Shown here: piece after piece, positions 37,501-42,247 of the stretch
Position numbering within the stretch: position 1 is the stretch's first letter
Layout: every line of letters begins with the position of its first letter
From: Paenibacillus harenae DSM 16969
Lineage (GTDB): Bacteria; Bacillota; Bacilli; Paenibacillales; Paenibacillaceae
Length of the DNA stretch: 64,000 bases
Assembly (NCBI RefSeq): GCF_000422465.1
Contig: NZ_AULV01000018.1
Span: 1-64,000 of the forward strand
Direction of reading: 5' to 3'
Notes under the pieces: model-generated
Database searches by the model: none
The model's input: only the letters and a program-made list of their open reading frames with translations
What the model was told of the DNA's origin: nothing
Position numbers and translations under genes: made by a program

Positions 37501-37863
37501 GGGGGCGTTTATGGATTCGACGGGGATTGGACGAGCGCGGGTTGCGGGTAGCAGGGAGTCGTCTGCTTCATCAACGCTAAAGCCAATTAAATGGCAAACA
37601 ACAACCAACTTACGCTTTCGCAGCTTAATAACCTGTGAGCGTGCTCCTACCTAGCATCGCCCATGTGACTAGACTAGGGGCTAACAAGTAGTGGGATACG
37701 CCGCTTCGGTCTCCGCCTGGGGTCGACGGAAGAAGATAATCAGGCTGACCCAACGCAGAGCCGGTTACGGGGCGCTGCTCGGGTGACATCAAAACTGTGA
37801 CTACACCCGTAGAAGCCTGTGTGGCGTGATCTTCGGACAGGGGTTCAAATCCCCTCGCCTCCA
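37501..37863 (+). ncRNA. ssrA: tmRNA (ssrA)
   Basis: A 363-base transfer-messenger RNA. The 5' end GGGGGCG pairs with CGCCTCC near the 3' end to form the tRNA-like acceptor stem; the T loop GTTCAAATC is present and CCA is not encoded. The tag frame, starting after the resume point, reads GKQQPTYAFAA at 37593-37625, followed by TAA TAA, so the added peptide would be A-GKQQPTYAFAA. smpB lies just upstream. The prophage integrase lies just downstream and the 3' end of ssrA is intact. Confidence 0.95.
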
Positions 37864-37911
37864 CTTAAATACAGACATTCTGTATATGGGAATGCCTTTA
37901 TCTAAGTGGAG
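37859..37911. other. Candidate left attachment site of the prophage
   Basis: CTCCACTTA (37859-37867) and TAAGTGGAG (37903-37911) form a perfect 9-bp inverted repeat. It overlaps the last five bases of ssrA and encloses a palindrome ATACAGA-cat-TCTGTAT (37869-37885). The total of 53 bases is about the size of large serine recombinase sites, and it lies between the host gene ssrA and the integrase gene. The crossover point cannot be fixed without the other end. Confidence 0.5.
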
Positions 37912-37937: not shown

Positions 37938-39362
37938 CTAAACGGTTAGTAGGTCGTTGACCTGCCAGCCGTTTTCTTTTTTATCTATCGTGATTTTTCG
38001 GAACATGGATTGAATCAATTCCTTCTGTGTTCCTTCCTCAAGCAAGCTCCAATGCTCCTTAAGCGTGATTAGCATCTGAATGAGATCCTCTGCCGGTATT
38101 TCGCTCTCATAAACATCCTCTTGCTTCGCCTTCGAGTAAATGTCGTTCATGCGCTGTTCTTCTTCCTCGATCAGCTGCGCGTAGTCTCCGGATGAAAGGT
38201 TTCCGTCTCCTAATGCGATCATCCAGTTCTTACGCCGGCGGTTGGATATCTCAACTTCCTTCTGCAGATCAAATTGCTCCTTTCGCTTCTTCTTGCGCTC
38301 CTGGACCGAGTTACCACTTACCATTACCCGTTCAAATACCAATTGATTAAGTGCGGGTTCCGATATCGTAGGCGTATCGCAAGTCTTATATAGATAGTTG
38401 TTGTGGCATCGGTATCCCTTGTACACCTGATAAGATCCATCGGCCATTCTCTTTTTTGAGCTATTCCCATTGAAGTTAGCTCCACATTTCGCACACTTCA
38501 AAATACCGGAATAGGCGTATGCGTAGCTGTTATTGCTCATTTCCCCAGCTTTGCGACGGTTGACCATTTTTTGCACCTTTTCATACTCTTCGATGGTTAC
38601 TATCGGTTGGTGTGCCCCTTGTGTGAGGATCCGCTTACTATCATCCCAATGCGATGGCTTGAAATGGTTATAGCCGGCATAGGTGGGATTCATGACAAGC
38701 GTTTTAATCTCCTTAGCGCCCCATTTGCCGCCTTCCTTCATGCGAGAGTGTTCATTCATCATCTGCGCTATCTTGTTGCGTCCTAGGCCGCTCAGATACA
38801 GCGTGAATACCTCTCTGACGAGCTTTGCCTCTTCCTCGACTACAATTAGGTTCAAATCGCTATCGAACATGTAGCCGAGCGGTGGACGGCTCATATGCCT
38901 GCCGCCATTCTGCGCCTTCTTGGTCAATCCCTTTAGTGTTTCTTCGCGCAGGTTGTCCAGGTAAATCTCGGCCCATATACCGGAGAACATGAGGAACGCT
39001 TTACCCATTGGAGAACGTGTGTCGATTTCCTCTGATCCTTGAGCTGCAATTATCAGACGTACATCTAGCTTATTGATGAGGTTGATAAATCCGTATAAGT
39101 CACCTTGGTTTCGGGATAACCTGTCTAACTTGTGGATAATTACAGTGTCAAACTTTCCATCCTTCATGTCCTGCAGCATCATTTGTACACCCGGACGCTT
39201 GAATGTCTTACCGCTGACTGCTGGATCCGAATACACCTTATAGAGCTGGAGTCCCTTTCTCTCAATGACACTCATGAGAATGTCATGCTGGGCCTCCATA
39301 GAAAATCCTTCCTCGGCCTGCATCTTGGAGCTGACGCGTATGTAAAGTGCTGCTCTGTTCAT
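37938..39362 (-). CDS. int: Large serine recombinase, phage integrase
   Basis: A 474-residue site-specific integrase. The N-terminal resolvase domain carries the catalytic Ser11 in YIRVSSKMQAE and the conserved Arg of DRLSRNQGD. The recombinase domain follows (about 155-260), then a zinc ribbon with CAKCGANF and YRCHNN...TCDTP (about 295-345), then a coiled-coil region (about 355-420). It should join phage attP to host attB near ssrA. It reads towards the attachment site, with its stop 75 bases from the end of ssrA. Confidence 0.95.
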   Translation of the reverse strand: MNRAALYIRVSSKMQAEEGFSMEAQHDILMSVIERKGLQLYKVYSDPAVSGKTFKRPGVQMMLQDMKDGKFDTVIIHKLDRLSRNQGDLYGFINLINKLDVRLIIAAQGSEEIDTRSPMGKAFLMFSGIWAEIYLDNLREETLKGLTKKAQNGGRHMSRPPLGYMFDSDLNLIVVEEEAKLVREVFTLYLSGLGRNKIAQMMNEHSRMKEGGKWGAKEIKTLVMNPTYAGYNHFKPSHWDDSKRILTQGAHQPIVTIEEYEKVQKMVNRRKAGEMSNNSYAYAYSGILKCAKCGANFNGNSSKKRMADGSYQVYKGYRCHNNYLYKTCDTPTISEPALNQLVFERVMVSGNSVQERKKKRKEQFDLQKEVEISNRRRKNWMIALGDGNLSSGDYAQLIEEEEQRMNDIYSKAKQEDVYESEIPAEDLIQMLITLKEHWSLLEEGTQKELIQSMFRKITIDKKENGWQVNDLLTV

Positions 39363-39666: not shown

Positions 39667-39984
39667 ATGCCTATAGATGTATTCGACAATTTAAATAATT
39701 TGCACCATTTCCAAACTTGGGAAGTGTTCAGTATCTGTAAAGATGTGAATTCGAGACGGCATATCGCCCGGGTCGGGAATGATGAATATTACTTTCCGCA
39801 TACGATTGAACAAAGAAGAATTATGACGGAGCCTTCAGGCTTTTATCAAATAAACCAAAATCAAATTGTGAATACGACACTAATCGACAAGTATAAAAAT
39901 GGGAAAATTACCATTGGGGGAAGGGATTATTACCTTTCTGATCGAAGAATACGTGGGTTTGAGTCTTTTTATTTCCCATATTGA
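39667..39984 (+). CDS. Phage protein of unknown function
   Basis: A 105-residue soluble protein that I do not recognise. It has many aromatic residues and ends in FYFPY. ATG 39667 has AAGGAG at 39655-39660. It stands alone, transcribed away from the integrase gene, and about 200 bases of regulatory-looking sequence follow. Confidence 0.7.
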   Translation: MPIDVFDNLNNLHHFQTWEVFSICKDVNSRRHIARVGNDEYYFPHTIEQRRIMTEPSGFYQINQNQIVNTTLIDKYKNGKITIGGRDYYLSDRRIRGFESFYFPY

Positions 39985-40188: not shown

Positions 40189-40410
40189 TCATCTACTCCG
40201 CTGCCAGTTCCATTCATATAGGTCATCTATCACAACCTTGAGCGGGACTGCAATCCTTTTTGCAACAACAATGCCCATAATATGGCGCATCTTTATGTAA
40301 TCATTTAATTGTTGCTTCGGGATTCCAGTTTGGTCGGACAACCATTGCTGAGATTGTTTTAGACGCTCTAAGTGTTCTGGAATTCGGCAGCTTATGGGTT
40401 TGAGATCCAT
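40189..40410 (-). CDS. Small helix-turn-helix regulator
   Basis: A 73-residue protein whose middle, WLSDQTGIPKQQLNDYIKMRHIM (named in part), fits a Cro/C1-type helix-turn-helix. Residues after it are hydrophobic and would form the rest of the helical bundle. It is divergent from a LexA-box promoter 38 bases upstream, so it may share that control region. Confidence 0.65.
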   Translation of the reverse strand: MDLKPISCRIPEHLERLKQSQQWLSDQTGIPKQQLNDYIKMRHIMGIVVAKRIAVPLKVVIDDLYEWNWQRSR

Positions 40411-40447: not shown

Positions 40448-40476
40448 TTGTACGCGAACGTCCGTTCGTATAAAAT
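40448..40476 (+). promoter_or_regulatory. Promoter with a LexA (SOS) box in its spacer
   Basis: TTGTAC (40448-40453), 17-base spacer and TAAAAT (40471-40476). The spacer holds CGAACGTCCGTTCG (40455-40468), a perfect match to the Bacillota LexA/DinR box CGAAC-N4-GTTCG. LexA binding would block the promoter until DNA damage. Confidence 0.8.
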
Positions 40477-40513
40477 GTTCGTATATCAACTTAGAGACAG
40501 GACGGTGTTGCTC

Positions 40514-40678
40514 ATGGAAAAACGAGAGTTGATTATAGATGTTGCACTATTTAAGAAATACGGTATAGAATCTCAAGAAGTTATCGAATATCTCGAAAAA
40601 AAACAAGCAGTAACATTAAAACCTATACACGTTAACGCTTATCAGTATTTGAAGAACCAGACTGTTGTGTCTTCATGA
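40514..40678 (+). CDS. Small SOS-controlled phage protein
   Basis: A 54-residue protein with the sequence start MEKRELIIDVALFKKYGI. ATG 40514 is chosen; GGACGG lies upstream at 40501-40505 as a weak ribosome-binding site, and the longer frame would contain the promoter. No family is recognised. It is directly behind a LexA-box promoter and its 3' end overlaps the end of the repressor gene on the other strand by 47 bases. Such a gene is well placed to trigger induction, for instance by acting on the repressor, but this is inference. Confidence 0.6.
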   Translation: MEKRELIIDVALFKKYGIESQEVIEYLEKKQAVTLKPIHVNAYQYLKNQTVVSS

Positions 40679-41027
40679 ATCTTTTGGCGCGTACAAATGC
40701 AATAAATTCCTTAACATCGTCCTCATCTAGTATCATATTATCAATTTTGAATGTCATTCTTTCTATTATTTCCTCATCAGTTAATTCCATTTCTAAGTAA
40801 TCAAGAAATAAGTCCGCACTATCTTGTTCCTCTTTTCCAAGTAACCAATTTGGTGTAACTTCATACAGATCAGCAAGTTTTTTTAGGGTAACGGTATCTG
40901 GATCCCTATAGTCCCTTTCATATCCAGAGATAGCACCATTAGAAATATCCAACTTTTTCGCAACTTGAATTTGAGTATATCTTTTCTTCACCCTCGCGTG
41001 TTTTAATCTCTCTCCAAGCGTCCTCAT
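40632..41027 (-). CDS. CI-type phage repressor (XRE family)
   Basis: A 131-residue protein. The N-terminal helix-turn-helix (about 5-60) reads MRTLGERLKHARVKKRYTQ and later KKLDISNGAISGYERDYRDP, typical of the XRE family. The C-terminus is acidic and helical, with no LexA-type peptidase motif, so it is not expected to cleave itself on SOS induction. ATG 41027 has AAGGAGGTG upstream. The divergent promoter region carries four copies of a 15-bp operator that it most likely binds. Confidence 0.85.
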   Translation of the reverse strand: MRTLGERLKHARVKKRYTQIQVAKKLDISNGAISGYERDYRDPDTVTLKKLADLYEVTPNWLLGKEEQDSADLFLDYLEMELTDEEIIERMTFKIDNMILDEDDVKEFIAFVRAKRFMKTQQSGSSNTDKR

Positions 41028-41058: not shown

Positions 41059-41171
41059 AATATACCAACATTAAGCGTTACGAATAAGTTGTTTAGCGAT
41101 AAGCGCAAATTTGTTGTTGACTAAGCGTAACGCTTAATGTATATTTAACCCATAACTAAGCGTAACGCTTA
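41059..41171. promoter_or_regulatory. Divergent lysogeny switch promoters with three operators
   Basis: Rightward promoter: TTGACT (41117-41122), N17, TATATT (41140-41145). Leftward promoter: TTATTC, N17, TATATT on the minus strand (41087 to 41059). A palindrome TAAGCGT-A-ACGCTTA lies in the rightward spacer (41122-41136) and again before the cro-like gene (41157-41171). A version with two changes lies in the leftward spacer (41072-41086). Confidence 0.85.
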
Positions 41172-41190: not shown

Positions 41191-41424
41191 ATGAATATAG
41201 TGGTTGCAAGAATGGAGCAATTACGGAAACAAAAAGGAATAACAAAGACTCATATTGCTAAACGGTGCGGCCATTCAGTATCTTGGTATGCTGATATCGC
41301 AAAAGGTCGCAGACGCGCATATTTGGATGATGTGTTCCTGATTGCTGAAGCGATGGACGTGCAGATAGAAAATTTTTTTGACTCCAAACTAAGCGTAACG
41401 CTTAATTCGGTACAAACTGCTTAA
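41191..41424 (+). CDS. Cro-like regulator
   Basis: A 77-residue helix-turn-helix protein (residues about 8-60, with KTHIAKRCGHSVSWYADIAKG). It faces the repressor gene across the operator region, the place of cro in temperate phages. ATG 41191 is preferred: GAGGGGG lies 9 bases upstream; an in-frame GTG at 41182 would be inside it. A fourth operator copy lies inside its 3' end. Confidence 0.8.
   Translation: MNIVVARMEQLRKQKGITKTHIAKRCGHSVSWYADIAKGRRRAYLDDVFLIAEAMDVQIENFFDSKLSVTLNSVQTA
41390..41404. promoter_or_regulatory. Fourth copy of the 15-bp operator, inside the cro-like gene
   Basis: TAAGCGTAACGCTTA, identical to the copies at 41122 and 41157, lies in the last codons of the cro-like gene, 70 bases before the antirepressor gene. 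Placed this far away it could support looping or repress the next gene. Confidence 0.8.
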
Positions 41425-41473
41425 CAGTCCTATTTTAATGGATTAACCAAATTTAGGGAAGGTGGTAATGAAA

Positions 41474-42247
41474 ATGAAACTATTCAGCTTCGGTCAGAAA
41501 GAAATGAGGATTGTCGAGAAAGATGCAGAACCGTGGTTCATTTTAAAAGACGTGTGCGAAGTTTTGGAGATTGATCAAGTGGCCGGCATTAAACGGAGGT
41601 TGTCTGATGATGTGATTTCAAATCACCCCATCCCTGACTCACTTGGCAGAATGCAGGATACAACAATCGTAAATGAAGATGGCCTATATGATGTAATCCT
41701 TGAAAGTCGCAAACCTGAAGCACGAGCCTTTCGCAAATGGATCACAAGTGAAGTCATCCCATCCATCCGTAAGAATGGCGCATACATGACACCGGAAACA
41801 ATCGAAAAGACGCTTACAGATCCGGACTTCATTATCAACCTTGCGACACGCCTTAAAGAAGAAACGGCACGAGCTGAAGCAGCAGAACGAGAACGTCAAT
41901 TCATCCAGGCTCAAAGAGATGCCGATCGTCCTCTAATCGCCTTTGCCGAAACGTGCATGGACAGCGAGAAGAACATGCTTGTTCGTGAAGTGGCCAAGCT
42001 TGCTAGTAAAAACGGCGTGATGGTTGGCGAGAAACGACTTTACGACAAATTGCGGTCATGGGGTTTAGTGTGCCAGAACAGTACAGAACCAACGCAGCGC
42101 GGTATTGAAATGGGAATCTTCGAAGTAATCAAGGGCGTTCGACAGACGCCAAAAGGCGCGAGGGATTGGGAGACTACGAAAGTCACTCCAAAAGGACAAG
42201 CCTACATTATTGATCGCCTGCAGCGCGAACTCAAGAAAGGAGCATAA
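41474..42247 (+). CDS. ant: Phage antirepressor (BRO-N and KilA-C domains)
   Basis: A 257-residue protein. The N-terminal BRO domain (about 1-105) contains the typical PWFILKDVCEVL and EARAFRKWITSEVIPSIRKNG segments; the C-terminal KilA-C domain (about 165-255) contains MLVREVAKLASKNG and YDKLRSWGL. Antirepressors of this type help switch a phage to lytic growth. ATG 41474 is chosen for its 9-base spacing from AAGGTGG; ATG 41468 is possible. Confidence 0.9.
   Translation: MKLFSFGQKEMRIVEKDAEPWFILKDVCEVLEIDQVAGIKRRLSDDVISNHPIPDSLGRMQDTTIVNEDGLYDVILESRKPEARAFRKWITSEVIPSIRKNGAYMTPETIEKTLTDPDFIINLATRLKEETARAEAAERERQFIQAQRDADRPLIAFAETCMDSEKNMLVREVAKLASKNGVMVGEKRLYDKLRSWGLVCQNSTEPTQRGIEMGIFEVIKGVRQTPKGARDWETTKVTPKGQAYIIDRLQRELKKGA

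Follow-up and report, generated by a model that had tools for sequence, protein, structure and literature searches.

A LexA-boxed small gene paired with the repressor tail in a Paenibacillus prophage: a putative antirepressor in a proposed portable cassette

How might a prophage with a short repressor that carries no self-cleavage domain respond to DNA damage? The question is raised by a 64 kb stretch of the Paenibacillus harenae DSM 16969 genome (NZ_AULV01000018.1; hereafter the window), which includes one end of a prophage. A serine integrase gene on the reverse strand (37938-39362) adjoins a tmRNA gene (37501-37864), and this suggests that the prophage is integrated at the tmRNA. Beyond it lie a forward gene for a LytTR-domain protein (39667-39984) and a reverse-strand gene, HTH73, for a 73-residue HTH-like protein (40189-40410), which forms the left flank of the cassette described here and is conserved in relatives. 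Similar-looking ORFs of 113-121 aa occupy the same place as the LytTR-domain gene, beside HTH73, in three related loci (L043, L049 and L052). To the right of HTH73 are a small gene encoding 54 residues and the convergent repressor gene. A first-pass annotation had proposed that SOS induction of the prophage may work through the 54-residue protein. Sequence comparison across related prophages leads us to think it likely that this protein is a LexA-controlled antirepressor which disables the repressor through its C-terminal tail, with small protein and tail travelling as one cassette.

The small gene is preceded by a LexA-controlled promoter-like site on the forward strand (40448-40476), read from the sequence as TTGTAC (40448-40453), a 17-nt spacer (40454-40470) and TAAAAT (40471-40476). 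As the first-pass annotation had described, a perfect LexA (SOS) box of the Bacillus type, CGAACGTCCGTTCG, is contained within that spacer at 40455-40468. It is the sole exact CGAAC-N4-GTTCG site in the window; the genome as a whole has ten, the other nine of which fall inside longer ORFs, and 125 sites of the core form GAAC-N4-GTTC. The box is of a type that fits the host, since the region upstream of the host's own lexA carries the core twice and that of recA carries a one-mismatch version. The -35 element is weak, with a 3/6 match to consensus, and the promoter is absent from the output of a promoter scanner; a TTGnnn-17-TAnAAT geometry like that of the window is found around the boxes of three relatives (L148, L149 and L152). 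A ribosome-binding-like AGGACGG (40499-40505, forward strand, read from the sequence) stands 8 nt ahead of the ATG, and Shine-Dalgarno-like sequences also precede most of the related small genes.

The small gene runs on the forward strand from the ATG at 40514 to a stop at 40678, and the repressor gene (131 codons) occupies 40632-41027 on the reverse strand. The two genes had been reported to meet tail to tail; they are indeed convergent, but rather than merely abutting they overlap by 47 bp (40632-40678). Above the Pfam cut-offs the repressor matches HTH families and no peptidase, in agreement with the earlier observation that it lacks a self-cleavage domain. It comprises an ImmR-type HTH (about residues 3-65), 58% identical over 64 columns to the ImmR DNA-binding domain 7t8i (phmmer E 1.5e-18), and a tail (about residues 72-124) that we designate type B. 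A model of the repressor (pLDDT 86) displays the ImmR-like HTH followed by a tail in which two short helices and two strands of two residues each accompany a long helix spanning residues 102-124. The HTH dominates the matches in structure searches, which hardly probe the tail fold; among the matches listed, 9iaq_B, at Z 10.4 and rmsd 8.5, has the broadest coverage of the model (102 residues). Profile searches of the PDB with both tail types gave nothing significant. On the far side of the repressor, a divergent (lytic) operon begins with a gene for a Cro-like HTH protein (41191-41424, forward) and continues with a gene for a BRO-N/KilAC antirepressor-type protein (41468-42247, forward), which is matched by PHROG 130 at E 3.5e-76 and by the Bro-N and ANT models of Pfam. 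Putative operators with the sequence TAAGCGTAACGCTTA are found at 41122-41136, at 41157-41171 and, inside the cro-like gene at its 3' end, at 41390-41404, and an operator-like site with two mismatches to TAAGCGTNACGCTTA at 41072-41086. The perfect copy at 41390-41404 is downstream of the main operators, and three to four nearby copies are present in several relatives with the same HTH.

The annotation's statement that the small protein belongs to no known family is borne out by Pfam, PHROGs, NCBIfam and PADLOC, none of which contains a family match: there is no Pfam model at E 10 and no NCBIfam model at E 1, and the best PHROGs match (E 0.062) is to a family of unknown function. Used as a single query, the protein identified one viral contig, with an identical sequence that represents its own locus, and no phage record or locus in the genome contigs. 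Against 295 family genomes it returned 84 at E <=1, the only significant one being its own (5.7e-30) and the next standing at 0.012. A weak match to the C-terminus of regulators, which we take to be of the GntR/YtrA type, recurred at E >=0.04 and was set aside as chance, there being no LexA box and no such repressor alongside. An AlphaFold model of the protein contains three helices at a poor pLDDT of 58.

After the small-protein search had given the own locus only, relatives were reached with the repressor HTH. Several HTH relatives in other prophages contain an HTH73 gene, a LexA box and a gene of 52-60 aa overlapping a convergent repressor; three (L045-L047) are without the boxed small-gene layout. 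The small proteins of this first set, which we call type A, have no similarity to that of the window, and no family match was found for type A in Pfam (three proteins) or PHROGs (two proteins, plus that of L043 and two others). A type A profile built from three proteins matched 16 of 394 family genomes, of which 13 were real; matches at L144, L145 and L147 fall inside long unrelated ORFs and were dropped. One locus, L068, has a repressor tail like the window's together with a small gene resembling the window's (single-comparison E 2e-5), and the type B profile made from this pair matched 7 of the 394 genomes, six of them real including the window's own, a match at G150/L153 being dropped for its internal stop and missing box. 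Homologues of type B are found at L148-L152 and L183-L195. The small protein of L158, from Paenibacillus xylanexedens, is the same as that of L148, and two other named records from the scan that gave L158 are also Paenibacillus. Isolated weak family matches for further type B proteins, at E 0.035-0.17, and a match of the type B profile to one designed repeat protein (E 3.4e-4, with no single stretch significant) were judged to be chance. Phage records were searched, with a reach of near relatives, using a single small protein of each type and that of L043; none gave a match, a hit of the last to Synechococcus phage S-CAM9 at E 0.8 being likewise attributed to chance. By sequence similarity, then, two unrelated families of small protein, A and B, occupy one and the same layout in related prophages, several of which come from Paenibacillus records, and the window belongs to type B.

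Viral contigs were also searched with the tails alone, using queries taken from loci that have a small gene and with many matches repeating known records or proteins. All 17 loci recovered with the type A tail carry a convergent type A small gene, and 14 of the 16 loci with type B-like tails carry one of type B (L182-L195, the first of which represents the prophage of the window itself). The two weakest of the 16 (L196 and L197) have neither an intact box nor an A/B small gene; the convergent ORF present there is unrelated. New small proteins from this search comprise six of type A (L166, L170, L175, L176, L178 and L179) and nine of type B (L183, L184, L185, L188-L192 and L195). In the nearest loci by tail, L184 and L183, the small protein shares 43% and 46% identity, respectively, with that of the window. 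The core box is intact before 16/17 of the type A small genes and before 7/13 of the testable type B genes, L194 being cut off; in the remaining 7 of these 30 loci the core of the box departs from the motif at one position, one of them being type A (L175) and six type B (L185 and L188-L192). L188-L192 have a one-mismatch box in common, GAACATACGTTT, and LexA control may be weaker there. In the family genomes, searches with the full-length repressor additionally pick up a chromosomal-type regulator, widespread and about 122 aa long, which has a similar tail. The 24 loci of this kind (L053-L077 minus L068) have no intact box and no A/B small gene within 3 kb, whereas L068, the 25th, is a prophage with both. 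The tail by itself is therefore not confined to phages, whereas the small gene goes with its phage versions. The tails of phage and host may have a common origin, and the host regulator might also be contacted by the antirepressor; in several of the loci the gene beside this regulator is presumably tyrosine-kinase-like.

The box and the gene overlap were measured across 25 loci, curated by the presence of the small gene and including near-duplicates. In 24 of them an intact GAAC-N4-GTTC is situated 40-110 nt ahead of the small-gene start, compared with a mean of 0.016 loci and a maximum of 1 in 2000 shuffles, and in all 25 the small gene extends into the repressor gene at its 3' end, by 26-104 bp. 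This arrangement, with a promoter directed into the repressor gene, would also suit an alternative in which the transcript itself acts: SOS-induced antisense transcription would pass through the repressor gene, working by interference or antisense RNA and maybe reading through into the cro operon, and the ORF would be incidental. From 40678 up to the cro operon, the only terminator-like element flagged by our scan is an operator palindrome; a fold of 503 nt gives z -1.3, which is unremarkable. What makes this alternative unlikely is that the ORF evolves as a protein, with pN below pS and an excess of third-position changes. Outside the overlap, L148 and L149 show 22 differences at third, 7 at first and 5 at second codon positions (pS 0.66, pN 0.15; p 1.8e-4), and L189 and L192 at 20, 6 and 3 (pS 0.84, pN 0.11; p 9e-5). 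The corresponding counts for the window and L184, 23, 16 and 11, give a weaker signal (pS 0.69, pN 0.36; third-position p 0.042). Overall, eight of twelve pairs reach p <0.05 in the codon-position test, with L150-L152, L185-L189, L178-L179 and L052-L166 pointing the same way without significance; pooled pN/pS is 0.45 over 18 pairs, which share sequences and hence are not independent. These patterns of substitution indicate that the small gene is under purifying selection as a protein-coding gene. The Shine-Dalgarno-like sequence is, moreover, mostly kept, and the type of small protein follows the tail at the protein level. Antisense transcription from the LexA promoter may nevertheless add to an antirepressor effect.

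The correspondence between small protein and tail was quantified in two ways, with L151 and L084 left out as near-duplicates. Leave-one-out typing of the small proteins, whose class was set by the analyst, agrees with the tail type, assigned by motif, in 34/34 loci, and in 33/34 when codons outside the overlap are used alone; the exception, L043, scores near zero for both types. The small protein of the window scores 35.0 bits over its full length, and its non-overlapping part 18.0 with B and -0.4 with A. In Mantel tests over 23 loci, the non-overlapping part of the small protein correlates with the tail (rho 0.72, p about 0.001), and the same part gives 0.10 (p about 0.2) with the HTH and 0.39 (p about 0.003) with HTH73. 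Within the 17 type A loci the values are 0.43 for the tail (p 0.005), 0.16 for the HTH (p 0.13) and 0.27 for HTH73 (p 0.053). Some of this covariation is expected from linkage alone, as the tail and the small gene are adjacent and overlapping; linkage explains part of the pairing, and the HTH73 control removes it only partly. HTH73 itself is exchanged in part independently of the small gene.

Individual pairs of loci illustrate the exchange (normalised alignment scores). L093 and L146 are identical in tail and in the N-part of the small protein (1.00) at an HTH score of 0.33. L148 (type B) and L156 (type A) have closely similar HTH73 (0.94), with 0.12 for the tail and 0.16 for the small protein, and the window (type B) and L049 (type A) score 0.82 in the HTH (77% identity over 71 residues), 0.06 in the tail and 0.11 in the small protein. 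The putative operators behave differently from the small gene. In the sequence around each small gene, TAAGCGTNACGCTTA with up to two mismatches is present in 9/9 loci that have the window's HTH motif (NG[AT]ISGYER[ND]YRDPD, a motif read by eye, and with the near-duplicates L052 and L084 among the nine) and in 0/16 others. These counts, together with the exchange pattern across loci, indicate at the level of sequence that operators follow the DNA-binding domain while the small gene follows the tail.

The pairing also bears on two further alternatives. The small protein could act elsewhere after SOS induction, for example as a recombination directionality factor for the serine integrase, whose gene is nearby, or as a host-takeover peptide, with its place beside the repressor a matter of regulatory convenience; some LexA-controlled phage genes are not antirepressors. 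This explanation offers no reason for the type of small protein to follow the tail, nor for two unrelated families in one slot, and we consider it improbable. A role as co-repressor or repressor stabiliser that limits rather than triggers induction is highly improbable, for while the tail pairing would equally fit a positive partner and LexA-controlled feedback is conceivable, a gene silent in the lysogen and on after DNA damage fits release better than maintenance, and for the non-cleaved repressors of Gifsy the partner under LexA control is an antirepressor (Lemire 2011, PMC3121763).

A view of the family that was not selected for the small gene came from 52 viral loci collected by the repressor HTH, of which 6 were excluded for having <=300 nt on the downstream side. 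The remaining 46 divide into 11 with a small gene behind an intact box, 15 with a gene carrying an HExxH motif and 20 with neither, under strict rules that count L100 and L129 (mismatched box) and L103 (longer ORF) as neither. Where the tail is of type A or B, a boxed small gene is present in 8/8 loci and an HExxH gene in 0/8; where the tail is DIAKR-type, a downstream HExxH (ImmA-like) gene is present in 13/16 and a boxed small gene in 0/16. The other tails (22 loci) are accompanied by a boxed small gene of other sequence in 3 cases, by an HExxH gene in 2 and by neither in 17. From these counts, related DNA-binding domains are linked to differing induction inputs. L085, L089 and L094 have a LexA-boxed convergent small gene whose protein and tail are neither A nor B, possibly further families of such a device. 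In the P. harenae genome, matches to the ImmA (M78) protease family PF06114 are located on contigs C12 and C1, and none is on the window's contig, C11.

Those steps of the antirepressor idea that can be judged from sequence came out in its favour: the LexA box is conserved, selection acts at the protein level and the type of small protein follows the tail. An antirepressor acting on the tail would explain all three, and the pattern of exchange as well. While the prophage is dormant, LexA of the host, bound to the box, would keep the small gene off, and the ImmR-type repressor would hold the operators at 41072-41171 and 41390-41404. LexA is cleaved after DNA damage, upon which the small-gene promoter would fire. 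The small protein would then bind the repressor at its C-terminal tail, the probable seat of oligomerisation, and repression would be lost and the cro operon released. SinI-like antirepressors mimic the C-terminal domain of their repressor. Profile comparison of small protein B with tail B (hhalign E 0.054, probability 1%, with cross-type controls equal or better) gave no similarity above that of the controls, so tail mimicry is not supported by profile.

Tail and small protein would be co-adapted and would move between prophages as one cassette, with HTH and operators exchanged separately. We give an even chance to a broader proposal, in which the tail and its overlapping LexA-controlled antirepressor form a portable induction 'fuse', carried on repressors of differing DNA specificity and swapped for other fuses such as a tail with an ImmA-like protease. 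If so, immunity (HTH and operators) and induction input (tail and partner) would evolve independently. Two prophages in one cell with different immunity and the same tail type would then cross-induce, and those with the same immunity and different tails would not. Tail type would provide a simple sequence rule for which antirepressor acts on which repressor and which prophages wake together. The antirepressor reading would also explain the DNA-damage response of Paenibacillus-type prophages with short non-cleavable repressors and no ImmA-type protease, and it would add two families of small proteins to which the family libraries consulted in this work are blind.

LexA-controlled antirepressors are already known as a functional class. 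Families A and B, the gene overlap and the tail pairing did not come up in searches of one open-licence library, in which few subscription papers are present. Coliphage 186 Tum is an SOS-controlled antirepressor, and the ant gene of Salmonella phage SPC32H is under LexA control. In ICEBs1, the metalloprotease ImmA is the partner of ImmR. The window repressor has an ImmR-type HTH in common with that system, but where many relatives have a DIAKR-type tail and an HExxH gene, it has a tail of another kind and a small gene behind a LexA box. A parallel by description is provided by Gifsy-1, -2 and -3 of Salmonella, where small antirepressors (GfoA, GftA and GfhA) under a LexA box act with a short non-cleaved repressor (Lemire 2011, PMC3121763); there the antirepressor and repressor are described as two spatially separated modules, whereas the pair in the window is convergent and overlapping. 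In SPC32H, a phage of a Gram-negative host, a C-terminal tetramerisation domain of Rep, with a strand-kink-helix fold, is the docking site of the antirepressor Ant (PMC9986798), a role like that proposed for the tail of the window repressor, which may also resemble that domain in fold. The N15 antirepressor is under SOS control according to the title of its paper, in a different host and likewise compared by description. Going by their titles, the structures 9iaq and 9sf2 concern a small Arbitrium antirepressor, again a small protein reported to target a phage repressor, but controlled by Arbitrium rather than LexA; in a search of PDB chain sequences with the type B small-protein profile, no AimX or Arbitrium antirepressor chain was listed. 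Finally, TF-smORF modules consist of small antirepressors adjoining phage regulators, which are SOS-independent and activated by a partner transcription factor (Silpe 2023, PMC10432266).
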